Origin: Odontesthes bonariensis
Taxonomy: Eukaryota; Chordata; Actinopteri; Atheriniformes; Atherinopsidae
Length of the DNA stretch: 64,000 bases
Direction of reading: 5' to 3'
Assembly (NCBI RefSeq): GCF_027942865.1
Contig: NC_134515.1
Location: 14,175,227-14,239,226, forward strand
Shown here: in pieces, positions 1 through 28,392 of the stretch
Numbering within the stretch: position 1 is the stretch's first letter
Layout: each line of letters opens with the position of its first letter
The notes under the pieces: model-generated
What the model was told of the DNA's origin: nothing
The model's input: the letters and a program-made list of their open reading frames with translations, nothing else
The model's database searches: none
Program-made: the position numbers and the translations under genes

Positions 1-1110
1 GTCATACTTGGCGATGTAGACGCTGGTCTTTGGTAACACATTGAGCTTAAACACAAAAAATTGTAAAAGTTTTTCAACTGTATTATTGTAAAGCTGCAAT
101 CAAAAAAATACAATATTTATCTTAACATTTCACATAGTCATTCTCCCTCAGTGATTTTCTCCATTTCTCGCGGTATTATACATCCAACATTACTAAACGT
201 CTTACCTCAGAGGTTCATTGCTGAGGTTTGAAGGTTCATCCTTGGACATGTCACTTGTCATGCTTGGCAATGGAGACACTGGTCTTTGGTAACACATTGA
301 GCTTAAACACAAAAAATTGTAAAAGTTTTTCAACTGTATTATTGTAAAGCTGCAATCAAAAAAATACAATATTTATCTTAACATTTCACATAGTCATTCT
401 CCCTCAGTGATTTTCTCCATTTCTCGCGGTATTATACATCCAACATTACTAAACGTCTTACCTCAGAGGTTCATTGCTGAAGTTTGAAGGTTCATCTTTG
501 GACATGTCACTTGTCATGCTTGGCGATGTAGACGCTGGTCTTTGGTGCGACATTGAGCTTCAACACAAAAAAATTTAAAAGTTTTTAAATTGTAATATTG
601 TGGAGCTTCAATGAAGAATTTGCAATATTTATTTTAACATTTCACATAGTCATTCTCCCTCAGTGATTTTCTCCATTTCTCGCGGTATTATACATCCAAC
701 ATTACTAAACGTCTTACCTCAGAGGTTCATTGCTGAAGTTTGAAGGTTCATTCTTGGACATGTCACTTGTCATGCTTGGCGATGTAGACGCTGGTCTTTG
801 GTGCGACATTGAGCTTCAACACAAAAAATTGTAAAAGTTTTTCAATAGTATTATTGTAAAGCTGCAATGAAAAAAATACAATATTTATCTTAACATTTCA
901 CATAGTCATTCTCCCTCAGTGATTTTCTCCATTTCTCGCTGTATTACATCCAACATTACTAAACGTGTTACCTCAGAGGTTCATTGCTGAAGTTTGAAGG
1001 TTCATCCTTGGACATGTCACTTGTCATGCTTGGCGATGGAGACGCTGGTCTTTGGTGCCTCGTTGAGCTTCAACACAAAAAATTGTAAAAAGGTTTTCTT
1101 AAAAAAAACT
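1..1110. repeat. Tandem repeat, about 256-bp unit, 4.3 copies
   Basis: The same block recurs at 1, 257, 513, 769 and 1023, so the period is 254-256 bp. Each unit runs from a GTCATRCTTGGCGATG-type start, through an A/T-rich middle, to a conserved CATTCTCCCTCAGTG stretch and a TTGCTGAAGTTTGAAGG stretch. Copies are mostly over 90% alike by eye. The fifth copy is partial and decays into unique sequence near 1110. The array begins at the window edge and probably continues to the left. No unit has a long conserved reading frame, so this is satellite-like DNA. Confidence 0.93.
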
Positions 1111-1767
1111 AAAATTTTTTCAAAGCTTTTAAATTGTAATATTGATGTGCTCCAAGGAATGACAATTGCCTTCTACCCCAATTGTAACCTCCTTTTTATC
1201 AGGTAAGTATGACTACAACGAACAAAATAGTATATACTCAAACAGACCAGTACCAGAATATCTAGGATTCCGCTGTTAGAGTCCATGGAGTGAATGCCAA
1301 TATTGAGACACACACACACAGTTTAGTTTGCAAATAACATCTATTTATATATTTTCTCCCAAAACAGAAACATGGCTATAAGCATTCAATGCAGAACAAT
1401 GAAAATAAGAAAATAACAAAGGAAAAAACAATGAACAGCGCACATAAAAAACAAAATGTATCCTCTGTTGTTTTGGGTTGAGTCTTCATTTATGAGCTTA
1501 GTGTCAGCTCAAGTGTTCGTTGGGGCCCTTTAATTTGAGTGAGTATCCATATATCCAGAGCTGGCCCAAGGCATAAGCAAACTAAGCGTCTGTTTGGGGT
1601 CCCGTGGCCACTAGGGGGCCCCCATGAGAAATTAACAAAAAAAAAAAAAACATTTTTGCATGTATGAGTGATGATTTCTATCTGATAAAAAAGATATATT
1701 ATTGTATAGAAAAACAATTTTATGTCAATGGAGTGTTGTTGCTGATGATATAGGCCTAGTGAAAATC
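1111..1767. other. No gene seen
   Basis: AT-rich spacer with a short CA run near 1307-1320 and a poly(A) tract near 1637-1650. No splice-flanked reading frame or known family is visible. It may include eroded transposon sequence leading into the hAT-like remnant that follows. Confidence 0.5.
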
Positions 1768-2024
1768 CTTTGAGGACTGTAGGGGACAAAGACAACGGTG
1801 CAAAAAGTGCTTTTTATGTGCCTTGTGGAGCCCATAGCTTAAATCTAGTGGTTTCTGATGCTGCTAAAGTGTCCATGGATGCCACTGGCTTCTTTGGAAA
1901 TGTGGAAAATGCCTATGAGATGCCTGGTGAGCCACAATCTGATGCCATGAAGAGGCTGGACCTTTTTTTAATGCCGTGGTTGACTGTACCATCCAGTCTT
2001 TGGAGGACTGCTTTTAGTCCCTAG
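1768..2024 (+). pseudogene. hAT-like (ZMYM1-type) transposase remnant
   Basis: The + frame from 1770 encodes a segment around PCGAHSLNLVVSDAAK and then FFGNVENAY. This matches the conserved core of hAT-type transposase-like proteins annotated in fish as zinc finger MYM-type 1-like. Only about 84 codons survive, and neither the N-terminal zinc fingers nor the C-terminal dimerisation domain is present. The family normally has 600 or more residues, so this is a dead fragment. Element boundaries are not visible. Confidence 0.72.
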
Positions 2025-3984
2025 GGGAGATTCAGAAGCATTTTTAGACTGAAACATCCCATAGTTTTCCCCTCTTTTAATTTCTAAAATGATATTATGT
2101 ACAGGTGACGTTATTGCGGTCATTAACTTGTGTTTCCCTGTTCCATCAGGTACCCTTTGAATGGTGTTTGTTTTGTTGTCCCCTCTTTTCTGTCTTGTCA
2201 AACCCCAGCTGGTCGAGGCGGATGGCCACCCTTCCTGAGTCTGGTTCTGCCAGAGGTTTCTTCCTGTTAAAAAGGAGTCGTTCCTTTCCACAGTCGCCTC
2301 AGGCACGCTCAGGACGGGAGATTGGACTGAAGACAAGTTTCGGTGCAATCTGTTGGTTTCCTTAGCTCGGAAATTGTTTTTGAATTGGCTAATTTCCATT
2401 CAGACATCTTGTAGAATACTTTCTTTTTTTTTAATTCACTCTAAGTTCAATCATCAAATAGAAATCAAAATAGGCTAAAAATATTTTCCAGTACAACTTT
2501 ACAATACTTAGCATGTATTAGTTTTCCTAGAAGAAGCAGATTGAAATACCATTTGACTTACTTGCCAGCTGTTGTATCCTCGTCCTCAGACATGCTGGTT
2601 TTAGGAGTTGTTTCAGATGTTTTCTGCTCTTCAGTAAGACCATGCTGTGATTTTATCTTGTTGATATTTGTGACATAAAGTCACATCCTTGGAAGTAGGC
2701 TTGAAACAGACTTACTGTATCCATGTCAAGATTCAAGTTCAAATATAACTTTTCTGATGAATATTCTCTGAAATGTATTCAGTTCTGCTGACTAACAGAA
2801 GGATTACCTCTGTTCTGACAAAGTCTATCACTAGACATCTTAAGGAAGTAAACTGAGTAGTTAATGTTTAACATCAACATGACTGTAATATGAGGACCTT
2901 GGCCTTGTTATCCAAATTGCTGTCATTTCCTGCATTAAAATTTTGTGCACACATTCATGGATCTGCCAGACTTTATCATGTGACCCCTTTGTGACCCTAT
3001 CAACAATTTGGCATTTTTCTTTTGTACAGAAATACCTCCCTATAACCATTGAATAGATTACCATTAAAAGCTTGGTAATCAGGCACTCTGACACACACCT
3101 TTTCTATTAACATTAATATCAACATGTTCTAACTAGTGTTATGACGGTGATTATTTGGCTGAAAAAATTGTTGCAACAGAGAGTGTTAATCATAGGGAAA
3201 TGCAATCAAAGACAAGGATAATGATCAAACTTAGTCATTTATTTACTGTTCATCAAATACTGTGGAACACAAACCAAAATCAAATGTCTGTGCGAGGCAA
3301 AAGTTTGTCAGCTCCTAGAATTAGCCGTCAAATTTAAGATGGAATTGAATGAAGGTATTTTTATTAAATTAGACCAGGTTCATGTGAGTGCGGGTGCCCT
3401 GTTTTATCTAAAAAGGCACATACCCATTGGCCTAAAAACATTAACCCTTGCCTTATATTCCTTTAACAGCATATGCATCCCCTGTCTGTTAATGATCCTG
3501 TAAAATAAAGCAGGTAAACAAAACAAAAAAACAGGGAGAATACAAACAGTTTGAATTTGATCTTTTTTTTCCCCAAGATGAAGTTAGATTCATACTTTGT
3601 AATCTTGTGGGTTCAAAATACTATTTCACAAGATATAATTTAATTCCTTTTTTTGATTTCTTTGAACGCTAGTCTCTTGTATATACATAGTCATTACAAG
3701 AGACCAGCCACTGTTAACCTAAATATAACCTGGCTTCTTTAAATACAACCAGATCCTCTATATGTCTGATTTGTGAATCATTTAGATGCTCTTTAAAACA
3801 CCAAAATGTTATGCTTTAAAAGTTAGAACAGGTACCAGTGGTGTTTGCTTGGATAATGAATACTTCCCACTTTGATGGCATGACATTTTTTTTCTTGTGG
3901 GACCTTTGACATTTGTGCTTATTAGTAGCTAAAAATGGATGCATCATCACACATGATGCCTTTTCTTTTCTATATACACCACCT
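2025..3984. other. No gene seen
   Basis: AT-rich intergenic DNA. Short open frames occur on both strands but show no family similarity, codon bias or plausible splice context. A 10-bp inverted repeat (GTCTCTTGTA/TACAAGAGAC) lies near 3672-3704. Confidence 0.5.
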
Positions 3985-4757
3985 CTTTGTTCTCAGTCAC
4001 ACACATAACTTTTCAAATCACTGCTATGCAGATGATACCCAACTGTACTCATAATTCCCACAAGATGACCCCACGATTCCAGCATGAATCTCAGCTTGCC
4101 TCTCTGACATCTTCACATGGATGAAGGAACTTATCCTCTTCAAGCTGCACAGTGGTAGCACCGTTGCCTCACAGCAAGAGGGAATCCCGGCTGGGGCCTT
4201 CCTGTGTGGAGTTTACATGTTCTCCCTGTGTATGTATGCGTGGGTTCTCTCTGGGTACTACGGCTTCGTCCCACCATCCAAAAAACATGCCTATCAGGTT
4301 AACTGGTGACTTTAAATTGACCCTAGGAGTGTGTGGGGGTGTGGATGGTTGTTTGTCTCATTTGTCTCTATGTAACAACATGAGAAAAAAAAATCAGGCT
4401 GTGACTGACTCAGAATGTCACCTGGCTCTTGGTAGAGGCCATGGTTATCTCCCACTTCAACTACTGTAATACTGTTCTAGTAGGTCTCCCTACCTGCACA
4501 GTTAAACTCCTACAAATGTTTTAGAACACAGCAGCACATCTGGTTTTTGATCAACCAAAAGGGACATATTTGACTCTATTGTCACTCCATTACAAATTTA
4601 ATTAAACTGGCAACCCATGGCTGCCAGAAAAAAAATCAAGTCAATAATGCTTGACGACTGTTGGGTTTCCACCAAGCAATATCAACTCAGTCATACAAGC
4701 TACATGCGACTTCTTTTGCGTAAAAGCATCCGCTAAATATTTGATTCTAAATCTAAA
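3985..4757 (+). mobile_element. L2/Maui-like LINE 3' fragment, dead, with nested SINE
   Basis: The + frame near 4017 reads the reverse-transcriptase motif HCYADDTQLY, with stop codons a few residues later. It continues with SACLSDIFTWMKE, typical of L2/CR1-clade elements. After an interrupting SINE at 4146-4382, the same element resumes with a VISHFNYCNTVLVGLP-like segment around 4441-4500. Near 4720 there is a 3' tail like AAAAGCATCCGCTAAAT, the usual L2 3' end. Several in-frame stops show it is inactive. The nested SINE inserted after the LINE. Confidence 0.78.
4146..4382 (+). mobile_element. tRNA-derived SINE-like repeat, copy 1
   Basis: It contains the common fish repeat with TTGCCTCACAGCAAGAGG, CTGGGGCCTTCCTGTGTGGA and CATGTTCTCCCTGTG motifs, ending with a TGGTTGTTTGTCTC stretch. 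It is the same family as the fuller copy at 39877-40237, in which a B-box-like GGGTTTGAATCC is visible. This copy sits inside the LINE remnant, so the nesting order is clear. The apparent peptides across it are repeat translations, not a gene. Confidence 0.8.
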
Positions 4758-7700
4758 AGCATGTTCCTTCTAAGCTCACTTTGTTGTGTGAGCAGAAGTT
4801 GTTGTCTGAATAATGTAGAAAAAGTCAAATATAGAGAATGTTAGAGAGACAAGACAAAGCAAATTCCCTGGAGACATAAACCTTACATTGGCATTTTGCC
4901 GTGATGAAAACAGAGATCACAAATGTATCAAAAGTTCTTGCGAAATTCAATGATTGGTCACCAAGAATACAGATGTAAGAAGAGAAGAACCATTGCTGAT
5001 GAATAGCCTGGATGATGTCTAAAAGAGCATTAGGAAGGTGAAACGGAGAACAATGTAAATGAAGGAGTCATTCAGCATATTTCACCACTTGCTATTACAT
5101 ACACTGTATGCATACTGCTTCTGATTTAGTATGAAGAATTAAACCATTAAACTAACCGTACTGATAATGTGTAACATCCTCTGGTCCCTTAACTGGATTT
5201 TCAAGGATAAATATTTACAATGAAGAAGATCAACATCTGTCTAAAAGTTGGAAGGAGCCAGATTAAACAGTTTTAACTGAGTGCAAATGTAGGGAAGGTG
5301 TGTATCATTCCTTTGGTATTCATGACCCTTTGAAGCATAACAAAGTTGAATGTTGTTTTGTTTGTTTGTTTTCTCCACCACTGATATAGAGCACTGTATG
5401 CTACCTTTTGGCTGCAGTCATAGTACACTAGGTGGTTCTGAATATGGCCATGTCTTTGGATGGAATATGTGACAAATCTCCCGATACAGTAAGTTCTGTT
5501 TGATGTCCGAATTAACTGCATTTGGGTGTCTCTTTAACGTCATATAACTTCGGTCACTTTGGTAGCAGTAATATGATTAATCAGAAACAAGGGTTAGATT
5601 GCACTTTCTGTAACATTAAGATCATTTTCATTAGGCACTAGAAGAAGACTAGAAGTCAGATGATGAATCACTTTGGTCCAAGAAAATTAAATTAAAGTAC
5701 ATTTTTGGATGTCCTTGATGATCTGATGATTATTTATCTTGTGTCAATACTAAAAAATACCTTGCCTGTATTATGCAAGACTTCCAGTGTCTCAAAAACA
5801 GCCTCCACTTGACCTCAGGGAGGACCTATTTAAAAAAGCAGAGTATATTGAAATGACCTTCAGATTGACTGTCAACATTATGACATATGGTTTCTGATTA
5901 ACCATATTGCTGCAATCAACGTGACGGTTGTCTCATTCCACCCAAGGATAGCTTAATTTTGGCAGGACACATGCACTGTAACCCATATTTTTATTGCTCC
6001 CTTTATTGATTCCTGCTGTTATCTTTTAAAAATATTCCTCCTACCTTCCATGTGTGGGAAAGGTGGAATATACTTCACAGATTATATGAGTATTTGTTTG
6101 TACAGCATACAATTTAGCTTTTCATGGCAATCATTTTGCATGTTTTTTTCCAAGTAAAGTTAACTCATTGGATGTTACGGTACAAAAAACATGATTTAAC
6201 AAAGTGACAAATGAGGTGGTATAAAAAAATGTACACAATCCAGGTCAGATCAGTTCTGAGTCCTTCCCACTGTAGAAATAATGTAACCTACAGCATAAAC
6301 TATTGTCCTTTCAGAATAGAATAGAAAAATACTTTATTCACAAGAAGTCCCAACACAAGAATGAACTCTCCGATTTTATCTGTATGCCCTCTTTTTTGTG
6401 TACATAACAGTATGAATCCACCAATTACTTAAAAAATAAATGACTAAATTAAATAAGCAGACTTCTTACTGTTGGTAGCAGGCAGCACCAATACTATAAT
6501 GCATAGAGTAAAAAGAGAGTAGGGGTATATCTCTTATGGTTGAATAGAATAAAATAAGTAAAAACAGAAAACATTTCTTGTTGAGTGCAAGGAATGTTGA
6601 GGTAAAATTCTGAACATTTTCAGGCATTACAGGGTTAGGGTAAGCCATTATGAATCAATTACAGAATTAAATACTTTTGTACTTAACTTTCCTTGAAAGA
6701 AAAGTTTATTAGAATTAATTTTCTGAAAATGGGGACACAAATAAAGTAAATGTATCCAATTAACAAAGAGACAAAAAGGTGGACTACAGCCACTGCTGTA
6801 TTTGGGTCAAAATCATGGAGCCAAAAGCTGAGTAAGATATGCTTGTACAGTGCATGCCCAAGCACTCCACTAAGATACAGTCTGCCAACCTTTTTGAGTA
6901 ATGAATTTCATCCCATTTGATGCAAGTAATTACTCAAAAAGGGTTGGCAGGCTGTATCTTAGCATTGTGTGTGGATTTATAAGAAAACTCTCCTACTTCG
7001 TCATCTTGATTGCATGTCTGAAACGGCATACCTTCATCCTGTGTCTCTTTACAGTTTGTCTGGTAAACCACATGACGATTAGTGGATCACTGGCCCCTGT
7101 GCTATAATCTGTGGGACGGAGCAGCTCTGAAAGGGCACTTGTGGATAATTGTTCGGGTCGTGTTTAGCCGCACACTGTGCGATAGCACTCCTGCCTTTCC
7201 ACTTTTTCTCCGTTTGTTCGTGTTTGCAAGTGTGTGTCGTGTAGCGGGTGTTCCCAGGTGGCTGAAAGGGATTTGGGTGTCTAAATGTTTCCAGTGGAAG
7301 AATTTAACCTTTGGCCTCTAAAGGAAAGTGCTCTGCATTCATCAGTAAGAAAGTGGACAAAACCTCATGCACACTTACAGTCATGAGCAAACACGCTAAT
7401 AAGCACATATGGGAATACATACACTTAGTTAGGAGGTTGCCATGATGATTCATGAGGACATAGTGCATTTCATTCCCCTTGAGGGAAGATCTTTGACCCC
7501 TGCAGTTGCAACAAGCAGTTTAGTTCTAGTCGATCACATCCGTACTGTCGTCTGTGAGTTCTCTGCTTTCACCTCACTCTCATCCTCCCCTCTTCACCTC
7601 CCTCTCACCTTAGTCTTTGTCTCCTTCGTGGTGTTTTTGCTCCAGTCGCTACGCCGTCTCAGAGAATACACACACAAAACCAAGAGTTACGTGTTACGTT

Positions 7701-7780
7701 AAATGTTTCTTCTTATGTCATGTAAAAGTTTTCACCTCATTTTTTATCTTTCATCCTCTCACAATCATTGTGAAATAACG
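4758..7780. other. No gene seen; one long inverted repeat
   Basis: AT-rich spacer without recognisable coding sequence. A hairpin-forming inverted repeat at 6870-6962 is listed separately. A short AGAATAGAAAAATACTTTATT stretch near 6315 looks like a remnant of a retrotransposon 3' end but is too short to assign. Confidence 0.5.
6870..6962. repeat. Inverted repeat, 33/34-bp arms, 26-bp loop
   Basis: The left arm (6870-6902) begins CTAAGATACAG and ends TTTTTGAGTAAT. The right arm (6929-6962) is its reverse complement with one substitution and one extra base. The 26-bp spacer begins GAATTTCATCCC. The size fits either a very short MITE or a foldback RNA precursor. No flanking target duplication is obvious. 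Confidence 0.85.
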
Positions 7781-8235
7781 TCACCCCTGTGGCGGTGGAA
7801 GACAGAAGAGGGCCCGAATGCAGACGGCAAACCAGAGGCTTATTTAAAACTGAAACCGAAGACACAGCAGAAAAACATACACTAAACTGTGAAAACAACA
7901 ACCAAAAAATAATAACTTACAGAACAAAACAGATAAAACTAGACAGGCGGAGGACAGAACTACAGAGAATAACAAAGTAGAGCAGAACGGGAAGGATCTG
8001 ACAATAACTGAGGCAAACTGGAGAACTGATGAGTAAGACTGCAGCTGTGACAGATTGACAACAAGTGAGTGTGGAGCAGACCAGAAACTGAACTGAGACT
8101 ACATCAATTAAAAATACAGATAGCTATGAAACAACAGCAAGAATAACAACAAAGGCAAACCATAAGAGGGGCTATAAACAAAAAGGCAAATGAAGAATAG
8201 ACGAACACAAACAAAGAATAAATCCTGATTCAAAC
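7781..8235. repeat. Probable interspersed repeat, A/C-rich, unassigned
   Basis: It starts with CACCCCTGTGGCGGTGGAAG, then GGGCCCGAATGCAGACGG and AGGCTTATTTAAAAC, followed by a long A- and C-rich stretch poor in T. Similar leaders (a pathway of AATGCAGAC then TTATTTAAA) occur in dispersed fish repeats. Family and ends are not resolved. It abuts a SINE fragment at 8236. Confidence 0.35.
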
Positions 8236-8309
8236 CATCCATCCATCCACTTTCTATACCCGCTTAATCCGTCGGGGATTAGCTGGAGCCTATCCCAGCG
8301 GTCATCGGG
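8236..8309 (-). mobile_element. SINE-like repeat fragment, copy 2a (tail end)
   Basis: It contains CATCCATCCAC, TTTCTATACCCGCTTAAT and GGAGCCTATCCCAGC. In the full copy at 39877-40237 these are the left end as read on the + strand. The match stops at the sequence ending ATCGGG (8309). Confidence 0.8.
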
Positions 8310-8670
8310 CTAATTCAAACCAATAACTCAAAATACTAAGAACACACCCAGAACAAGTTTGTGATTTACCTTATAGCATCAGCTTTAGTTTGACTAAAAG
8401 CTAGCAGTTGCTGTTTCAGAGCTCTGATGTGATAGATGTTCTGCTCTTCAAAGAGGACAGACTGCAAGCTAAGCACAGCTGCACTGAATGTTTGAAGTTA
8501 AGCTCTTCACAGTGTCAGACACAAGTTGTCACCCTGGAACAATTCACAGTTAAATGTGATATTTTTGTACTTTCCACTAACATTATCAGGATTCCATCTA
8601 AGAGTTATAGATGCTGTCATCTCTGCCATCTCATTAGCTGAGCTACAGCTAAAGACAATCCTGAAGACAA

Positions 8671-8798
8671 TCCCAGCTGCCATTGGGCGAGATGCAGAGT
8701 ACGACTCGGACAGGTCGTCAGACCATCGCAGGGCCAACACAGAGACAAGAGACCAACCACCACTGAATCACCAATTAACCTAACATATATGTGATTGT
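8671..8798 (-). mobile_element. SINE-like repeat fragment, copy 2b
   Basis: It picks up the same SINE family with TCCCAGCTGCCATTGGG, then GACAGGTCGTCAGACCATC, CAGGGCCAACACAGAGACA and ACCAATTAACCTAACAT. It starts with a 17-bp stretch resembling the end of copy 2a (14 of 17 identical). Copies 2a and 2b could be one element split by the 361 bp between them. Confidence 0.75.
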
Positions 8799-10792
<1,994 letters not shown>

Positions 10793-11460
10793 ATACCATA
10801 CAATCACTGCTGCAGCTGTGGGCGTCATCAATTAAAATAAATCAGTTTAAAGACACATGGAGCAGATTGGCTGCAAATCTAACATCTCTGCAATCCTGCT
10901 GCTGTGTTAAATGTAATCACAACTGACTGTAAAAATTAGGGTAAAAACCACAAAACAGAATTCAGCTATTCGAAAGACAAAAACATTTGTTTTGAAACTT
11001 TAGATATGACTTTAACAGGAGGAATATTTCTGTGCTCTTTTTGGTATTTTTGGTATGATGTTTATGTTCCTATCCATCATGCAGTACAATCAGGAAGCTG
11101 TCCATTGGTCCGAAATCCATTCAGCTACAAGAATAATCTGTAGCAAACATACAGAAAGTCATCCAGGAAGTGTAACAGAAGTGTAAAGATGCTGCAAAGT
11201 TGGACATGTGGTGATTTAAATTGTTAAATTGTTAAACTTCTGCGGTTGTGAGACATCTATGTTTGCTGTTGTTTGAGCAGCAAGTCAGAAATATGCACAT
11301 TCATGAAGACAAGGAGAGTGTGTGGTTCATGTATTTTGATTTTCATCTTTTTGTCAGCAGGATTACTCCAGATCTTGAGTATGGATTTACATGAAGACTT
11401 TAGCAGTGCTTCTTTGTGTTCATTGGTTCATGTGTGTGTAGTAAAAGAATGTGAATTCCT
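10793..11460. other. No gene seen
   Basis: Intergenic sequence with no recognisable coding or repeat features. Confidence 0.5.
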
Positions 11461-11469
11461 GATTACTGG

Positions 11470-11976
11470 TAGCCTGGCTGACGCGTCCACAATCTCGATG
11501 AGATGGTGGTCTGGGAACTAGGTGTGCATTTTCTCGTATTTGAGGCGTGGTTTACGAATGCCTAGAGCCGTTTATTGGGCGCTACGAATATCTATCAAAT
11601 GGCGTCTGGTTCTTCCCATGCTGCTTTGCGCACGATTCATAGCCAATTGTATCACTTATACCAGATGACGACAGAAATTCGACTAGGAAGAAGAAGAAAA
11701 AAAGTAAAATAAAAGTAAACTTGCGCTCTAAGCTACTTAAAACACTTTCTAAGGCTGCATCGAACGGTAACGTTGTGTCCTCTGCCATGTTTGATTTACA
11801 CTCTACAAGCTTCGGTGTCGCGCATAGACGTCGTCATCGCCTTGCTGACCCCCCCCCCCCCCCCCCCCCCCTCCCGTTCTGTGATTGGTTCCCAAACTCA
11901 GGCAAAAATAAGGGCGGTGGTTTCCAGGCTTTGCAGTGAGAATTGCGCGCAAAGCAGCATGGGAATTCCCAGGCTA
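11470..11976. mobile_element. 507-bp non-autonomous DNA transposon with 9-bp flanking duplication
   Basis: GATTACTGG occurs at 11461-11469 and again at 11977-11985, directly flanking the block. The ends are inverted: TAGCCTGG on the left and CCAGGCTA on the right. No transposase is encoded. A duplication of 8-9 bp fits hAT, P or Mutator-like elements; the family is not decided. The block is more CpG-rich than its surroundings and holds a 23-bp C run at 11849-11871. Confidence 0.82.
11849..11871. repeat. Poly(C) run, 23 bp
   Basis: Uninterrupted C tract inside the 507-bp transposon. Length in the assembly may be unreliable. It follows a CGTCGTCATCG stretch. Confidence 0.95.
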
Positions 11977-11985
11977 GATTACTGG

Positions 11986-13194
11986 GGCAAATTAAGAGAT
12001 TTATGCGTTCAGAGAGAAAACTTTTAAGAAATTAAGAAAAAAGGAGAAGATGCTGGATGGACAAAGATATGATGAAGGCAAAAGAACCTTTGATTATTTT
12101 TTTCACCTGGAAAAAATGATTGAATTCACTGTGCATTTTATAGTCAGCTAAATATAATAAATGCAAACAAATAGTCATTTATGATGATGAAAATACACGT
12201 AATCAGTGCTCTCCTTTCTATTTCTCCTCTTATTGAAATCTGATACCTCTGTCTGGATCTGCCATCAGAGGTACAACCGCGTGTTGTCTGAACTGTTGAC
12301 CTTAGACCTTCAGCCTGGGGTCATGGCTGTCAGGAGCAACAGCAGCAGAACACCAGTGTGGTTACAAGTTGTTTCAAAGATGAGCAGTCAGTAAGACGGA
12401 GAGTTGTTTCTTTTTAATTCATTAGTCTACCCCACAGGGATTTCTGAGAGTCTCCAGAGGTCAAACAGGTCCCTAGCAAAGTAAGGAGAGGCATATTCTC
12501 ACAGTTTGTATGATAATGAGAAAGTAGAGCAGGCAGATGCAACATGTTCAATAAACGATTTTTTTTAACCATTAAATTGTCTCTGCTGCCCTCTAAAGGT
12601 TGAAAGGGGGAACAACATTTCAAAATGTAAAGGAATCAATGACAGCTCTTTCAGAGTGGATAAAACAATGAGTGCATCCTTGTTTGAATACAGTTCTGGG
12701 TTACGTTTTCCAACAAAAGGCAGGCAGGCATTCTACCTTACATGTTTTTATCCACTATGGTGGAAAACAAGCACTTAGTGACAGTTCATTTCTGAAAGTG
12801 ATGTCCTTAAGAAATAAGGGGGAATTGAGACAAGGCTGAGTTATGCCAAATGACAAAGGACTCAAATGAATATCCGTGGCTACAGGTCTTATGGACGAAT
12901 ACTTAAAGAAATGGTAAGAAAGCTTGTCTGAGAGGCTTCAGACACTAACACTAAAAAGTCATTCTAAATGTACCTGTACTGTTGTCCCACACCTGTAAAG
13001 CATCAGGTACTATTACATTACATGGAGTTCCACTAGCAGCAATAATAAAAATTTAAAAAAAAAAACAAGACACAAGCCACTAAGGGATGCTGATACTGGT
13101 GGAGCTGCCAGTAGGAAACTTCTACCTGAGGCTGAAGTACTTAACTCTGATGAAGCCAAAGAAAGACCTGAATCCCAGACCGAAGAAGAGCAGA

Positions 13195-13197
<3 letters not shown>
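11986..13197. other. No gene seen
   Basis: Intergenic. Short frames on both strands have no family similarity. Confidence 0.5.
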
Positions 13198-13278
<81 letters not shown>

Positions 13279-13286
13279 TATGTATA
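13198..13286. repeat. (TA)n microsatellite
   Basis: About 89 bp of alternating TA with a TG interruption near 13260 and a TGTATA end. Ile-Tyr repeat peptides over it are artefacts. Confidence 0.98.
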
Positions 13287-13739
13287 CTCCAAGGTTTTTG
13301 GAAAAGTTGGCAACCCTGAAACATGGAGTGACACAATGTAAATTCAGCCCTGTATATACTCATATAAAGCAGTGTTTGAAACTCAGTGTTGCTCTCTGGT
13401 GGCAACCCACTGTTGTCTATAAATCGGAGTATGTTTATTTTTTGTTTTGTGAATAATGGATTAGCATGAAAACAAAATAAACAGAGCTGAGTGGTCTTTG
13501 AAATCTGAAAGATCTGCTATCAATTTGCAAAGCTCTGTAATTATTCTGTAATTGATTAAAATAATCATTTTCAATCACTAATAATCATACAACCAGCGGG
13601 TCTACTTTCTCTGAGTAAGGAATATTTCAAGACGAATTTCCATTGTTTGCCAAACCAACAGAGAGCCCACGGCTCGTTTAATCTGAAAATCATTGAGCGG
13701 AACTAGTAGTTACGAACTTCCGGAGACAAACACCGCTGT

Positions 13740-14168
13740 TTCTGAACTATGAGGCAGAATGAACAGCTGGAACAGTGGACAGGCTGACCACGTTGTTCAG
13801 TTCAAAGTGTAAGTACAACAAATGATAATTGGCACACACGCCAATGTGTTTCATTCACCACGTCATGACATTAAATAACCGCGTTGTGGAAACGATTTTT
13901 AAGCTAACTTTGCATCTGGCTGGCTGGGTAACGCGTAGTAGCATCGCCAGTTACCTTTTGTTTTGAAAGCGTCAGGGTTATTCTTTCCAGTATTATTTGT
14001 TAATTTCACATCTCACGTTTGGTGGTTTTATTAATCCTGCTGCTCGTTTAACTCAATTCAGACGTTTACTTCAACGACAGGGATGTTGCAGTAATAACTA
14101 ACTAACCAGTCATTTCTGACATTTCTTTTCCTTTTTCCCCCCTCTCATTGTCATTCTCACTGTGCAGG
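13740..14168 (+). other. Possible 5' UTR exon and intron of the Tc1-derived gene
   Basis: A candidate exon around 13740-13808 ends TTCAAAGT before a consensus GTAAGT donor. A pyrimidine-rich tract then ends CTGTGCAG near 14167, a good acceptor. The exon holds only short upstream frames (for example one starting ATGAACAGC), which stop soon after the junction, so translation most likely begins at 14311. The transcription start is not identifiable. Confidence 0.45.
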
Positions 14169-14310
14169 ACACATTGAGCTTCAAGAGATCTTCCTTTTCC
14201 CAGAATGTCTCTGATTTTTTTATACAACATTATGGAAACCCCCTACAATATGTCACAGCAGCTTCAGAGCTGGCTGCTTGGCTGTCAGGTGGCGTTGTCC
14301 TTCAGCTTCA

Positions 14311-14979
14311 ATGGAGAGCCACCACGTCAACGGGAACAGCATGAGTGACCTGACCGAGTTTGAAAGATGCCAGATAGTTGCTGCACGGCTGTCAGGTGCA
14401 TCCGTCACAAAGACTGCGCAGCTGTTCAATGTGGCAAGGGGGACAGTATCAAGGGTCATGACTGTTTACATCAAACAAGGACGAACAGCATCTGCAAAGA
14501 AGAACAGCGGCCGCAAGTCAAAGCTCACTGAGGAGGATCGACAGACACTTCTCAGGATAGTTGATGAACACCCCGAGTATACAGCCTCAAAAATAACCAC
14601 AGAGCTGAACAGACTCCTGTCTTGCTGTGTCTCGGTGAAGACTATAAGGCGAGAGCTGCACAAAGCTGGTATTTTCAGAGGAGCACCCAGTAGAAAACCA
14701 GAGGCAGGGGCTGATACACAAAAGCCATATGGAGCGAACGCTAATCCTGACAAGGAGTATGATGTTCAAAATCCCAGTGAAGATATTACGCAACCTGAAA
14801 TGCGAGCAGTTGGTTTACAAAAGTCTGCGGGAGGTGAAGCAGCATTTAAGGCTCAGGCTGCAGGCCAAAGGAACGTTTCAGAAAAGTCTGAACCGAGAAT
14901 ACAGTCAGAAGTATCTGAGTATAGCTCTCAAACGCTTGGTGAAGGCTGGACGAGACGGGAGAGGAGGATCCCGTTTTAA
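14311..14979 (+). CDS. Tc1-type transposase DNA-binding domain protein, possibly domesticated
   Basis: 222-aa product. Residues about 15-130 resemble the bipartite helix-turn-helix DNA-binding region of Tc1/mariner transposases: [18 protein letters not shown], then [29 protein letters not shown], and [13 protein letters not shown]. The catalytic DDE domain that should follow is absent; the C-terminus is hydrophilic and unlike transposase. I chose the ATG at 14311 (A at -3 is absent, G at +4); the frame is also open upstream to a TTG at 14278. A possible untranslated exon lies near 13740-13817 (donor GTAAGT at 13809) with an acceptor CTGTGCAG before 14169. AATAAA lies 52 bp after the stop. From 14648 to 14992 a second + frame is also open and codon-rich in CTG, CAG, GAG and AAG, so the true C-terminus is uncertain. 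No terminal inverted repeats were seen. Domestication is inference. Confidence 0.68.
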
Positions 14980-15030
14980 AGAAACATCATGACAAAAAAA
15001 CAGAAATGGAACTCCAGTGTAGTTATAAGG

Positions 15031-15036
15031 AATAAA
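15031..15036 (+). terminator. Polyadenylation signal AATAAA
   Basis: Canonical AATAAA 52 bp after the stop codon of the Tc1-derived ORF, followed by GCTGTTGTTATATT, a plausible downstream U/GU-rich element. Confidence 0.6.
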
Positions 15037-15039
15037 GCT

Positions 15040-15652
15040 GTTGTTATATTCACACTGTCTAATACATCTAGACTTAAGGATGTTAAGGGAATCCGCATCA
15101 TGCCTTCACTACATAAAGTCACCACATGTTACTGTACTCATTCGTACCAGGAACTGCTGTGAAGCGACGTTGCTAGAGACGGCATGCAGAGAATTACTGT
15201 TGGGAATTTCTGTTTATATTTTCCAGATGCTGAAGTCCTAGCTGATTGAATACATTAGTGTACATTAGTGTTTGTACCGCATGAAAAGAAAAATTGCACT
15301 TAAAAATATAAAAGTTGTCACTTTTCTTTTGTTAAAGTCAAAGTTACTCCTATCCATCAACATTGGTTGTGTTTCTGGTAGGTTATTTCGCAGTTGTGCA
15401 CCTTTCAAGATTGTTTGATAATGACAAAAATACAATAGCACCATTCATCCTCCACAACACTGCAATGTTTAATGTAAGTTACACCTTTCTAAACAATTGT
15501 TCTCAAATATCCTCATTAAAATCTGTTAAGTTTAAGATAAATAAACAAATGTAATACACATTAGTGCATATTAGTTTCAATAACACATCACAATCCTGTA
15601 TCCTGGTGTAATGTAAGCAAATTTTTTTATACATTTTTATTGACAGGTTTTC
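15040..15652. other. No gene seen
   Basis: AT-rich spacer between the Tc1-derived gene and the MITE. Short frames have no similarity. TACATTAGTG occurs twice in tandem near 15252-15270. Confidence 0.5.
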
Positions 15653-16069
15653 TTAAAGGGCTAGTTTGCCTCTTTTGACATGAAGCTGTATGACATCCCA
15701 TATTGCCACCTGCCGATAGCTGCGCCTGTTAAGGTGTTTGCTGCTCGGAAGCAGGGGACTGCTCGGTCTGCACGCAGTGATACAAAGGGGGAGAAAATAG
15801 CACCAAGCAATTGTGAGGTCTGACCTTTTTCCTGCACAACGATTGTGTGATGCAAATGTATTACTCTTTTGGACACATATTGTTTTGAGAAGCAAAACGC
15901 TTTATTTTTGCAACCCCAGCCAACTACCGGACTACCTTCGCCAACGCCAAAACGAGGCCGGAACTCGGCTCACTGGACGCAGCAGGGGGTAAGTCAAATT
16001 TCATTAATGATATTGCTAATATGGGATGTCATAGAGCTTCATGTCAAAAGAGGCGAACTATCCCTTTAA
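15653..16069. mobile_element. 417-bp MITE with about 49-bp terminal inverted repeats, TTAA-flanked
   Basis: The left end (from 15657) reads AGGGCTAGTTTGCCTCTTTT and continues GACATGAAGCTGTATGACATC. The right end, read on the - strand from 16065, is AGGGATAGTTCGCCTCTTTT and continues GACATGAAGCTCTATGACATC. About 45 of 49 positions pair. TTAA sits at 15653-15656 and 16066-16069, as in piggyBac-type insertions, although the terminal sequence also resembles Harbinger-type fish MITEs. No transposase is encoded. Its right end is about 107 bp upstream of the selenok start codon. Confidence 0.93.
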
Positions 16070-16176
16070 GGGCTGCGCCTGCGCAATACAAAGACGCATC
16101 GACAGACCCGGAAGCGTTACGTCAAGCGTAAACACCACAAACACAGCTGTGAAAGCTGTGCTTCACTTTCTGAAAG

Positions 16177-18109
16177 ATGGTGTACGTGTCGAACGGTGAG
16201 TGGTTTATCCTATCTTTACAACTATATGTCTCAAACAAATTAATGAATATATAGCCTCCAAGTGGATACAGCACTATATTTAGAAAATTTTAAAAAAATG
16301 TAATGGCAGAGGAGGATTGGGCTTATTTTTAGCAAATTAGCTTTTTTGTTAGCTTAGCCTGGCTGAGTCCGTGGAGCAAGAAGGACTCGAATTAATATTA
16401 TGTAATAAACATTGAGCAAACAAAACATTCAGGCTCAGATTTAGTTTAAACGATCGTCTTTTTGACGATGAGACTAAAATGTAAACCCGAAGCTGCGTTT
16501 GGAAACGAGCCATGATGTGTTGTTTCACATATGTAGCCTGATCCTTTTTACATGTGTGCACTGAATGTCACTTTTAGAGGAGCAAAGTTGAATAAACTGC
16601 TAACTGGTGGTCTCAAAGAGGAAAGTTCACAAAGTTTTAATGTTGTTCATTTCCACCATTCACTCCCTGCTGTCTGACATTAACTCTCTATGCGTCTGTC
16701 AGGTCAGGTCCTGGACAGTAGGGCACAGTCACCATGGCGACTGTCCTTACTGATTGATCTTTTCTGGGGAGCAGTGGAGTTTATCGGCCTCTTGTAAGTT
16801 GAGGACCACCTTTTGCTCTAGAATGGATCCGTGTGTGTGTTTTGTAAGGTGAACAATTTTCACTGGGTGAACAATTTTCTCGTTTGTTAATTATTTCGCA
16901 TTGTACCATGCTCAGTCTTCAGTGACAGCTTTGATCTTCAGCAGTTATGTTTACGGCAATCTCAATTTAAGGCAGATTAGAGTGTCTTTTGATGTATAGA
17001 TATTGTGTTTGAGAATGAAAGGAAATTGTTTTTGTTTAATCACAACACTGATATTCACACTGATCTTCTTTGTACAGTTTTAAGACAATAATTCACCCTG
17101 ATATGTCAAAGGATGGAACCAGTGCTTCATCACGCTTCAGTGACGGCAGAGGGTAAGTCCCAGTCATTTTGCTACTGTCAAAAGCACAACAGGTACATGT
17201 CCAATAGGGCCTCCTATTTTAAACATTAAAGCCATCCTAATTTGATATACATGTCACCGGTAAGAGGCATTTTAGTGTTTTTAACTTTAACTGCACAGGG
17301 GGATAAAAAGTGTATACTGTGTTATCGGTCTTACTGCTAACTAATTAAAACATTATTCACAACCAAAAGAATTGTTGAATTTCAACAGAGAACTGCAGAG
17401 TAGCCAACTTGTGCATCTGTGTGTGAATTTGCCCCATATATATACCATTGATCCTTCTCACCATTGTTCTTTCTATCGCTACTTTTGTAGTCCTCCAGGT
17501 CCCCCTGGTGGCAGGAGGCGAATGGGAAGAATAACCCATGGTGCAGGTCCTAACGCTCCACCAATGGGTGGAGGAGGATGAGGAAGGTGAGGAATAGTTT
17601 TTCCTTAAACCGTAGTCATATCAACCACTTTTGATTTATCTGAACCTTCTACTTTAGAAAACTTGATCATATGAGGTGTAAGCCTGAGACAGAGAAACTT
17701 CTGGAAATGAACTGAAAACTTGCATGTTAGCTCCTCTTTCAACAACACTGACTAATGAATCGTAATGTTTTTGCATTCACAAGCATACCTCCTGGAAACA
17801 TTTGCATTGTAGTCTGTTCTTTTAGCTTTACATTTATGTATTTGGTGGTTTGCTCTCTGTATTTTGTCTGTGTTGTTACATCTGTGACTTCTTAATTTGC
17901 TTGCTCTATTTGTATTTGTTTACTCAAACTGTAGTTCCTTGAACACTAAGGGCCACTGCAGAAATGACTTAGTTTAGTCTAATAACTTGCCAAAAATGTT
18001 CTGAATAGTATTATTTAAGCTGTCTTTGAAGTACCTATCTGATTATTTTAAGATGATATGAATATAAGATATAACCTCAACACTGTATCGCCTTCACTTC
18101 TCTAGGTAA
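16177..18109 (+). CDS. selenok: Selenoprotein K
   Basis: Small ER-membrane selenoprotein; in mammals it works with the palmitoyltransferase DHHC6 and in ER-associated degradation. Coding exons: 16177-16195, 16703-16793, 17078-17152, 17491-17586 and 18106-18109, with matching GT/AG sites and phases. The product is 94 aa, the same length as human. It begins MVYVSNGQVLDSRAQSPW, has one membrane segment at about 20-40 (SLLIDLFWGAVEFIGLFF), then a Gly/Pro/Arg-rich tail with RRMGRITHGAG. The UGA at 17579-17581 follows GGGG and encodes Sec92; Gly93 and Arg94 follow, with the arginine codon split by intron 4. TAA in exon 5 is the stop. If intron 4 is retained, the next stop also comes right after Gly-Arg, so the protein would be unchanged. 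A SECIS lies in exon 5. actr8 converges from the right. Confidence 0.97.
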
Positions 18110-25216: not shown

Positions 25217-26695
25217 TCACTTCTTTCCTCTGCAGCTTGTGATGGAGTTGAATATCCTGGAGAAGAAGTTTTGAATCCTTTTAAAAGGTTTCTTGTGGGT
25301 TTTTACTTCAACAGGATCAGAGGCTTTCACTTCTTTGCATGCAGTGGATTCATTCTCTGCCGCAGTGAGCTTCTCATGGGTCCCGTCAGTCGTGACGTTT
25401 GCCGATGGTTCACCTTTGCTGACGGCTGTTGCACTCTCAGCTCTGTCTTCAGATTCTTTATCAATAGGATAAAGGGGCCTCACTGTTATAATGGTTCTTC
25501 TGTTCCACCTGCCGTCTTTGGAGCATTTTCCAGCTGACTTCATCTCTGTCTTCCCTCGATGACAACTTTTCAAAGTTGTTTGTTCTGAGTTTAGATAAGA
25601 GGGTTCATTTTCTTTGAAGGAAGAGGCTGGGAGTTTCATAGTGAGGAAATTGTGTCCAAGAGCTTCTCTGGGAGTGATCCGTTTACCCTGATCCACAGTC
25701 AGCATCTGCTTGAGCAGGCTTATAAATGCTTGTGTACATTCAGAGGGATCCAAAGGCTCTGGGTTCATCTTTGGCAGATCATCGAGTGAGTATAGACTGT
25801 TATAGATGCCCTGAAGCTCCTCTGTACTGAAGCCTGTCGCGTTTGTGTATTCAGCTGGTGTATTCAGCCTAAATATACGGTCAGGGGAGTCTTGGACCTG
25901 AGTAAAAAAGTGCTTTACTTTGAATCCTGATTTCAGGAGATCCTTTGTTGGTTGACATTGCAACTGTACAACTATCCTTACCACCTCGTACTCACAGTGT
26001 GTAGGATAGAGATTCTGGCCAAGATACATGTAGGCCAAAGTACATCCAAGAGACCATATATCTATACCTTCATCCATTGGAATCCCCAGGATGATCTCAG
26101 GAGCCCTGTAACCAATAGCCTGAAGGGTGCCTCCCCACCACAGCTTGGATGTCTTTGTAGCCAATCCAAAATCAACCAGCTTTACCTTGTAGGACTGAGA
26201 CTGATGGTTCACAAGCATTATATTGTCTGGCTTTATGTCACCATGAACCATGCTGATGCTTTTCAGTGCGTCCAAAGCCACCAGCATCTGCTGAGCAATC
26301 ACTCTGATATCAGAAACAAGGAGTGGCATGAAATTTTTGCTTTTGATTAGGTCAAAAATACTTAAATCCAGTTTTTCAAAAACCAGACAGAAGTGACCTT
26401 TAAATTTGAAGTGCTCCCTGAACTTCACCAAGTTGTTCTTGTCAGGGTCAAGCTGTCTGAGTTTGTTCAGCATTCTGGCCTCTCTTCTGCCTTCTCTGAA
26501 AAGGTCTTTTCGTATAATTTTCACTGCCACAATCTCTTCTGTATCCAGTTTTGTGCACTTGGCCACTTTTCCAAAACCGCCCTCACCGAGGAAATCATCA
26601 ATGTGGTATCCACTTGAATTTCCAGTCAGAACAACGTTTTTCTGTACAGTATACAGTGGTTTCTCTCTTCTCTTGGTATTTTTTGAAGCTGCCAT
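25217..26695 (-). CDS. Homeodomain-interacting protein kinase-like Ser/Thr kinase, single coding exon
   Basis: 492-aa product from the ATG at 26695 (G at -3 and G at +4); the frame is open 71 codons further, but an acceptor TTTACTTTCAG at about 26883 suggests that part is 5' UTR. Kinase domain about 30-352: GEGGFG loop 38-43, VAVK lysine 59, HGDIKPDN with catalytic Asp153, DFG 175-177, APE 198-200, then IDIWSLGCTLAYMYLG. The CMGC/HIPK signature is clear (HIPKs have HAD rather than HRD). The activation-loop STYLQ tyrosine of HIPKs is replaced: the loop reads GGTLQAIGYRAPE. The long nuclear and homeodomain-binding tails of HIPK1-3 are missing; the C-terminus is hydrophilic and ends in a basic KKPFKRIQNFFSR stretch. 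Fish genomes carry many short HIPK-like genes; this is one, inserted between actr8 and il17rb. Activity looks intact. Confidence 0.9.
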   Translation of the reverse strand: MAASKNTKRREKPLYTVQKNVVLTGNSSGYHIDDFLGEGGFGKVAKCTKLDTEEIVAVKIIRKDLFREGRREARMLNKLRQLDPDKNNLVKFREHFKFKGHFCLVFEKLDLSIFDLIKSKNFMPLLVSDIRVIAQQMLVALDALKSISMVHGDIKPDNIMLVNHQSQSYKVKLVDFGLATKTSKLWWGGTLQAIGYRAPEIILGIPMDEGIDIWSLGCTLAYMYLGQNLYPTHCEYEVVRIVVQLQCQPTKDLLKSGFKVKHFFTQVQDSPDRIFRLNTPAEYTNATGFSTEELQGIYNSLYSLDDLPKMNPEPLDPSECTQAFISLLKQMLTVDQGKRITPREALGHNFLTMKLPASSFKENEPSYLNSEQTTLKSCHRGKTEMKSAGKCSKDGRWNRRTIITVRPLYPIDKESEDRAESATAVSKGEPSANVTTDGTHEKLTAAENESTACKEVKASDPVEVKTHKKPFKRIQNFFSRIFNSITSCRGKK

Positions 26696-26882
26696 TTCTG
26701 AAGGTTGTCTATGGTCAAAAGAATGCAAGTCTTCTCTCAACTCAACGGATCTTCTCCAACAATGGTCATACAAACATGGGAATTTGGTCTGTGCTTGCTG
26801 TGGTTTCAAAGGAATGTTTACATTTGAGTTTTGGTGGCGATGAGGCCACGTTCGGAATACCCCGCCCACCGTTGCTGTGATA

Positions 26883-28392
26883 CTGAAAGTAAACAAAAAT
26901 AAAGACATTTTATGTTATAAGTAACGGGTACAAAGTGGATGTCCAAAAAACAACTTAAAAAAATTGACAACATAATCAAAAATCCGAAAACCTGTCTCGG
27001 GTGAAATGTGCCCACATGGACACGTACAGGTCGCTTAATGACATGACCGGGTGATCGTGTCACGTGGTACAAGCATGAAATACAATAAAATGCCATCAAA
27101 TCATGCTGAAGTTTGAATATAATTCGTGTATTGTTTAAACATGGTTTCAATGCATGAAGTTTCTTGGCGTCCCGCGTGCGCTGACGACCAGCGCTGAATA
27201 TCTGATGATCTCGGAATCATTTTTAAAAAGCGGATGATACGTCAGCATCGTATCTATGTTTACAGAAATATGCACGATTGAGGTCATATCATGGACTGTT
27301 TTTTCCATTTATTGTATTCATCATATTAAGATAAAATGATAATAATGAATTTTGAATGACAGAGGGGCCAGAAGGTTAACTCTGTGATCTAGTGACCCCT
27401 TGTGGTTGTCATATTCTACCAGGGAGAAGTGGGACAACTGGACAACTTCCCAGTCAATCAGAAGGCAAACAAATGTACATGAGCAAAAACGTCTTACTGC
27501 ATTTTACAACAGTGTGTGAATATGATAGTGAAAAAGAATTTCATGGTCTAAAACACTGCACTAAGATATAATATATAAGCGTGTGTGAATGAGTGAAAAA
27601 GACTTGTGCAGGATTAGAAAAGCAGTGTAAAAATACAGTCCATGCATCATTCATATCCGCAACAATCTAAGTCCTTACATTTTTGCAGCGTGGTATTAAG
27701 TAGAACCCATACGGACAACTCAAAAGGGAAAATTCCTGTTTGAGGTCAGAATCTGCTCACAGTGAGGCAACAATTATAAACACCCTTTCAGTTTTTACTA
27801 GATGAACAAATCAAACTGTCATAGGGCAAAGTCTTGAGTATTGTTGTAAGAGGAACCATTTCCTCTTCTGCGGCCCACTTTTTTCAACTGAAGAGATATT
27901 CAAATACTTAAGATGATATACACAAATGCAACAAATGAATAGTTTTTAGGATAGTTTTTATTTCTTAAATATAAATGGGAAAAAAAAGGGCAAACAGAAG
28001 TTGTATTTGTTTTTGAGTCACTTTTGTCTCGGTGCTTGCATACCCCCCCCTTGAACCAGTCTGCCATTTCTCTATCACAATGACAACAGTCAAAACACCA
28101 ACAGATCACGTCTGCTTTTGTTTGCTGTTCTTTGGAAATTCGCTTGTATTTGCCTTTCGCAAGAAGTTATCATAAAACACAGATCAAAACAAACACTGCC
28201 CACTGACAGAGAACATGGGATTTTGTTGTGTGTGTGTGAGAGTAAAAATGAAAGTGTGTAAAACAAGAAGAGGGAGGATGAATTAAATTACTTTTACAAA
28301 AAGGTTAAGATCATGAAAAAACAAGTTATCCACAAATCAACTCTTCTGACCCTCTCATATTTATCTATCAGTCTCAACCTTCTTAAGCGGGT
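26883..28392. other. Spacer between HIPK-like gene and il17rb; il17rb 3' flank
   Basis: No coding sequence recognised. The left part should hold the HIPK-like promoter and any upstream untranslated exon. The right part should hold the il17rb 3' UTR, with a reverse-strand AATAAA candidate near 27957. A run of 8 C lies near 28043. Confidence 0.5.

Follow-up and report, generated by a model that had tools for sequence, protein, structure and literature searches.

An old Tc1 transposase has probably left its N-terminal, DNA-binding half to the host as a gene just upstream of selenok (exaptation), a reading to which we give a probability of roughly 0.6 from the sequence of the DNA analysed here (64,000 nucleotides, hereafter the window). 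We prefer this reading because the open reading frame (ORF) in question is single copy by DNA search, has no DDE catalytic domain, shows a strong contrast between synonymous and nonsynonymous divergence (pS and pN) from transposon copies, and lies behind a CpG-rich stretch with an ETS-type pattern that resembles the one at selenok. A preliminary description of this locus had also proposed exaptation, and had argued for it from an intact helix-turn-helix (HTH) region. Exaptation stands as the best-supported reading, but not for that reason, since 67 of the 119 other scored HTH-spanning matches in the same genome likewise have no stop inside the HTH (for 45 of these 67, the open frame has fewer than 222 codons). 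An open HTH on its own is weak evidence for exaptation; the locus stands out by combining a lack of DNA-level siblings, of a DDE domain and of repeats with saturated synonymous change and a tail that is open as well. Transcription, translation, DNA binding and function of the encoded protein of 222 amino acids (aa) are what we infer from these features.

The ORF consists of two HTH units and a tail:

14311-14979, plus strand: ORF of 222 aa, Tc1 DNA-binding half plus tail (from the ORF list, Pfam and NCBIfam)
14341, plus strand: alternative start of the ORF, which would give 212 aa
14347-14472, plus strand: first HTH (HTH1), residues 13-54, matching HTH_38 and HTH_23, with 56-68% identity to 20 scored places in the genome
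14530-14703, plus strand: second HTH, residues 74-131, matching HTH_Tnp_Tc3_2
14707-14976, plus strand: C-terminal tail of 90 aa, hydrophilic and acidic overall (pI 5.1)

The frame is free of stops from 14215 onwards (counted from stop to stop) and is the second longest open frame in the 64-kb window, for which about 0.006 open frames of this length would be expected from the window's stop frequency. Its end had earlier been placed at 14992, which is in fact the end of an overlapping ORF in the +1 frame (14729-14992); the 222-aa ORF itself ends at 14979.

An uninterrupted bipartite HTH region of Tc1 type, as described before, was recovered by Pfam, with HTH_32, HTH_Tnp_Tc3_2, HTH_38, HTH_23 and HTH_7 above their cut-offs (HTH_Tnp_Tc3_2 at residues 79-131 with 32.3 bits against a cut-off of 31.5) and HTH_SB and HTH_Tnp_IS630 far under theirs. 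The NCBIfam model for IS630 transposases aligns with its positions 2-119 of 299 to residues 19-130 (E 1.2e-15; 57.7 bits, where the cut-off for a whole protein would be 100), and this alignment ends at the very point where the DDE domain should start; the IS481, ISNCY and IS3 models gave weaker matches over the same part. A chain of Sleeping Beauty, whose type is DD34E, matched weakly at residues 72-129 (E 0.4). Single-sequence structure prediction, of low confidence (mean pLDDT 46), gave the HTH part five helices and left the tail as coil.

The absence of a DDE catalytic domain, also reported in the preliminary description, held both for the read-through frames around the ORF and for genome-derived DDE queries across the window. 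Nine read-through frames (plus strand 12809-14310 and 14981-16180, minus strand 14707-16180) yielded a single chance row at E 0.18 to something other than DDE, and with DDE queries cut from the same genome, the whole window had no row at E ≤ 0.01 and three rows at E ≤ 1, all of them beyond 19 kb. A frameshifted DDE domain downstream of the HTH, which we considered as a candidate, was rejected on the basis of these searches. Terminal inverted repeats had not been seen before either, and we found none that convinced us in 13290-16016, where the best inverted pairs were one of 23 nt at 74% and others that were shorter. Two plus-strand read-through frames of 1-13501 matched no family, and of the pattern-scan matches in viral contigs (10) and genome contigs (65) none was confirmed.

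The tail matched nothing in Pfam, so that no recognised host domain is fused to the HTH, and none of the 149 other scored whole-protein matches in the genome passes residue 170. It is open in frame 0 and also in the +1 frame, whose protein resembles a linker-histone-like or winged-helix domain by eye. This candidate was rejected, with Pfam blank for the 87-aa ORF in that frame and synonymous shuffles in favour of frame 0; a 114-aa version of the +1 frame gave only unconvincing rows against the PDB (best E 0.071). When the tail region was shuffled synonymously with the frame-0 protein kept, frame 1 remained open in 8-15% of the shuffles, whereas with the frame-1 protein kept frame 0 was open in 0 of 20,000 (codons preserved) or 0.025% (uniform synonymous codons). 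Because of this asymmetry, the +1-frame ORF is best read as a by-product of frame 0. Codon preference favoured frame 0 in the HTH (0.202 vs 0.120 and 0.131 in the other two frames) and did not do so in the tail (0.118 in frame 0, 0.174 in frame 1 and 0.152 in frame 2), on a scale on which 99% of noncoding 90-codon frames fall below 0.129 and whose small training set gave a score of -0.002 to a true kinase exon that had been left out. GC3 is only 0.49 across the HTH and 0.36 across the tail.

To place the ORF among its relatives, we searched a single assembly, the 945-Mb genome to which the window belongs (contig C15), which the preliminary description and the gene content mark as that of a fish. 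The check for near-identical copies elsewhere that the preliminary description had proposed turned up no DNA-level sibling: A DNA search with the ORF, of a kind that by the tool's own warning can miss common words, returned its own locus only, and the same search with 13290-15650 added 28 short matches elsewhere, all within the first 50 bases of the query. At the protein level, 150 of 987 candidates were scored, which leaves 149 rows besides the ORF's own locus; 20 of these are confined to the first HTH, with 56-68% identity, and the other 129 extend over longer stretches at 25-40%. We fetched 26 relatives, namely 15 of the 20, 5 of the 129 and 6 more of the 129 that were picked among stop-free matches with open frames below 222 codons. 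Behind the HTH, 25 of the 26 have DDE sequence, or 23 of 24 without L042 and L034, from which the two main DDE queries had been cut; it is present only as short pieces in L036 and L028, and the one exception, L043, is described below. The 15 copies from the nearest family (L026-L040) are 96-99% identical to their own consensus over 135 bases and form a young multicopy Tc1 family in which the second HTH is missing and the first is joined straight to DDE sequence, so that internally deleted Tc1 copies appear to have spread. Two further Tc1 copies with DDE remnants and with stops or frameshifts visible by eye were noticed in stretches sampled arbitrarily, in L014 (5601-7200, minus strand) and L004 (1201-3000, plus strand).

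Since the copies of this nearest family lack the second HTH, their consensus could be compared with the first HTH of the ORF only (45 codons, 135 nt). The two differ at 43 of 135 nt, distributed as 10, 6 and 27 over codon positions 1, 2 and 3, which corresponds to a pS of 0.743 (saturated) and a pN of 0.171. These differences amount to 15 amino-acid changes, against a neutral mean of 25.4 and never fewer than 19 when as many changes were placed at random in 2000 simulations, and 64% of the simulations contained a stop. As a control, the 15 copies were set against their own consensus, which gave a pooled pS of 0.021 and pN of 0.018 (11 synonymous and 27 nonsynonymous differences), as expected if these young transposon copies decay without constraint. 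From the contrast between pS and pN we conclude that constraint acted along the lineage that links the ORF to the transposon family, with the phases before and after insertion inseparable: constraint within the mobile lineage would give the same pattern. Residues that are common to two Tc1 families were not significantly better kept in the ORF than others (9 of 12 vs 19 of 29, P 0.42). Against the other Tc1 family (L041-L045), the HTH of the ORF is likewise saturated (pS 0.70-0.86, pN 0.48-0.52).

Several features upstream and downstream of the ORF resemble those of a gene:

13651-14100, no strand: CpG-rich putative promoter region, CpG observed/expected 1.0
13716-13723, plus strand: putative ETS-type site ACTTCCGG, a pattern match, one of 4 in 64 kb
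13725-13808, plus strand: predicted 5' UTR exon 1, placed by its donor and the CpG/ETS position, with 13725 as its assumed start
13809-14167, plus strand: predicted intron of 359 bp, donor AAAGT/GTAAGT, pyrimidine tract and acceptor GCAG/G
14205-14348, plus strand: upstream ORF of 47 aa that overlaps the main start, with AUGs at 14205, 14232 and 14250
15031-15036, plus strand: polyadenylation signal AATAAA

Both the intron in the 5' UTR and the polyadenylation signal had been pointed out before and could be located again, the former as a plausible candidate with consensus sites (GTAAGT donor at 13809, GCAG acceptor ending at 14167) and the latter about 50 bases after the end of the ORF at 14979. 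For the CpG-rich region, the 400-bp windows that begin at 13651 and 13701 are exceeded by only 33-34 of 1273 overlapping windows (median 0.37); among separate CpG peaks it ranks eighth, and several higher ones lie elsewhere in the window. Its neighbour in this ranking is a stretch upstream of selenok (15851-16250, observed/expected 1.03), and another match to the ETS-type pattern lies at 16108, also 5' of selenok. That selenok adjoins the ORF downstream, as described earlier, is borne out by the frame from 16603, which scores above the cut-off for PF10961. If selenok starts at 16178, as the protein's first residues suggest, the ORF lies around 1.2 kb upstream of it on the same strand.

The spliced model contains five AUGs 5' of the ORF, three of them within the upstream ORF that overlaps the main start, and these three (14205, 14232 and 14250) each have an A at -3, while the main AUG at 14311 has a T there. 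The 222-aa ORF could be translated only through leaky scanning, from a different start site or from a different splice form, and the overlapping upstream AUGs count against simple translation. Inside the putative 5' UTR, 14224-14291 (plus strand) shows a weak likeness to the start of the first HTH, possibly as a decayed partial duplicate. Shuffled sequences aligned equally well to the ORF in 28 of 2000 trials and to the transposon consensus in 186 of 2000, and under stricter scoring in 3 of 500 and 52 of 500, respectively.

The reading that has to be weighed most carefully against a host gene is that of a truncated, dead Tc1 copy without function whose frame is open by chance and whose family is otherwise gone or entered the genome only once. 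We consider this unlikely, even though stop-free HTH frames are common among the other matches (67 of 119), the divergence of the first HTH may date from the mobile phase of the family, and the upstream AUGs and the lack of support for the tail by codon preference would both fit a sequence that is not translated. From a young insertion, terminal repeats, a DDE domain and siblings would be expected, and none of these were found. For an old insertion, the chance of having no stop would be 0.008 at 0.2 neutral substitutions per site, and the chance of an intact frame falls to about 2e-7 once frameshifts are added at an assumed 0.1 indel per substitution; the tail, moreover, is open as well.

A host transcript of another kind would also account for some of these observations: the HTH stretch might be transcribed as one exon in a gene that is larger or alternatively spliced, or as part of a noncoding transcript adjacent to selenok. 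The upstream AUGs that overlap the main start would agree with this, as would the +1 frame, which is open over the tail with a slightly better codon preference than frame 0 (0.174 vs 0.118). Yet the synonymous shuffles favour frame 0 in the tail, the 87-aa ORF of the +1 frame belongs to no Pfam family and its 114-aa version has only unconvincing PDB rows, and the stop codon and AATAAA lie in the same exon as the ORF, which together make this explanation distinctly improbable.

For the preferred reading, a host gene made from the DNA-binding half of a transposase, the following course of events can be proposed. The catalytic domain and the terminal repeats would have disappeared from an old Tc1 insertion, and the truncated insertion would have gained a promoter of CpG/ETS type and a 5' UTR exon. 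Tc1 transposases bind a bipartite site with the two HTHs of their paired-type domain, and the protein encoded by the ORF most likely still binds DNA at such a site via its two HTH units, while its predicted make-up would render cutting of DNA impossible. The likeliest action would be the occupancy of sites without cleavage, either at sequences like Tc1 ends or at host sites derived from them, and the 222-aa protein might serve as a small repressor or recruiter to which the tail could add contacts or contribute nothing.

A second ORF of similar composition is the exception among the fetched relatives that was mentioned above:

C4:14226292-14226714, minus strand: ORF of L043, 140 aa, HTH-only, GC3 0.73

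Pfam places HTH_32, HTH_28, HTH_23, HTH_29 and HTH_38 above cut-off in this ORF and HTH_SB and HTH_Tnp_Tc3_2 just below, while the search for DDE gave no row at E ≤ 0.01 and a single chance row at E 0.035 on the opposite strand. It differs from four transposon copies of its own family with a pS of 0.805-0.817 and a pN of 0.296-0.316, whereas those four differ among themselves with a pS of 0.04-0.12 and a pN of 0.09-0.12. L043 resembles the ORF in the window in being HTH-only and DDE-less and in its saturated synonymous divergence from transposon copies, but it comes from another Tc1 family (ELSEFQRG type), is only 40% identical to the HTH in the window and has a high GC3. It is a tentative suggestion, and one that we hold to be somewhat doubtful, that with these two ORFs a single teleost genome might carry two or more Tc1 DNA-binding proteins free of catalysis, each domesticated on its own from a different family, which regulate Tc1 ends, or host sites that descend from such ends, by occupying the DNA.

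Compared with the transposases of the Tc1/IS630 group, the ORF in the window shares the bipartite HTH half (HTH_Tnp_Tc3_2; IS630 model positions 2-119) and differs in having no catalytic domain or terminal repeats, in being single copy by DNA search and in its own C-terminal tail. The capture of transposase DNA-binding domains is already known, and the ORF is unusual in that its Tc1 HTH stands alone and has no recognised partner domain. Host-transposase fusion genes such as KRABINER and SETMAR contain a captured transposase DNA-binding domain (PMC12062965), and from these the ORF differs as a stand-alone HTH plus tail without a recognised host domain. The same paper describes Caenorhabditis F-box A2 genes with a Tc1/mariner HTH outside a transposase and predominantly purifying selection, in which the HTH is N-terminal, simple tri-helical and fused to an F-box, with an isolated HTH in 3 of 44 C. 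elegans HTH proteins (PMC12062965). Both cases have the HTH outside a transposase, but the F-box A2 genes are from nematodes and F-box-fused, whereas the HTH in the window is bipartite and stand-alone. Among the domesticated genes of the wider IS630-Tc1-mariner group, the pogo-derived vertebrate genes TIGD2-7, JRK, JRKL, CENPB, CENPBD1, POGK and POGZ are all described as retaining the DDE domain (PMC7386202), which is absent from the ORF in the window. In pike, a transposase element that carries HTH_Tnp_Tc3_2 and is present in many copies is reported close to the amh genes (PMC6726246), and two further papers were included in the comparison (PMC10027918, PMC7325037). A search of open-licence literature found no paper on a Tc1 transposase and selenok together, and none that by its title deals with the gene in the window, which does not prove that there is none. 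New regulators have repeatedly arisen from transposase DNA-binding domains. The ORF beside selenok, a conserved selenoprotein gene, together with L043 and the 149 other scored HTH matches, of which the fetched ones are mostly transposon copies, would allow a direct test of whether proteins of this kind act on host genes or hold their source transposons in check.

The remainder of the window provides some further observations on the neighbouring genes. Rfam reported no family at gathering score over the window (1-64000), and hence no SECIS element was detected for selenok. A 53-nt inverted repeat (15652-15704/16018-16070, 94% complementary, arms 313 nt apart) ends just before selenok and looks like a MITE that inserted upstream of this gene. 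Further downstream follow an actin-family match on the minus strand, a Pkinase ORF, exons with SEFIR and with GMC oxidoreductase domains and the C-terminus of a calcium channel; all but the kinase fit known genes, namely actr8, il17rb, chdh and cacna1d, respectively. The Pkinase ORF is long and single-exon (25217-26914, minus strand) and lies between the actin-family and SEFIR genes; it is presumably HIPK-like and, going by the human gene order, unexpected at this place.
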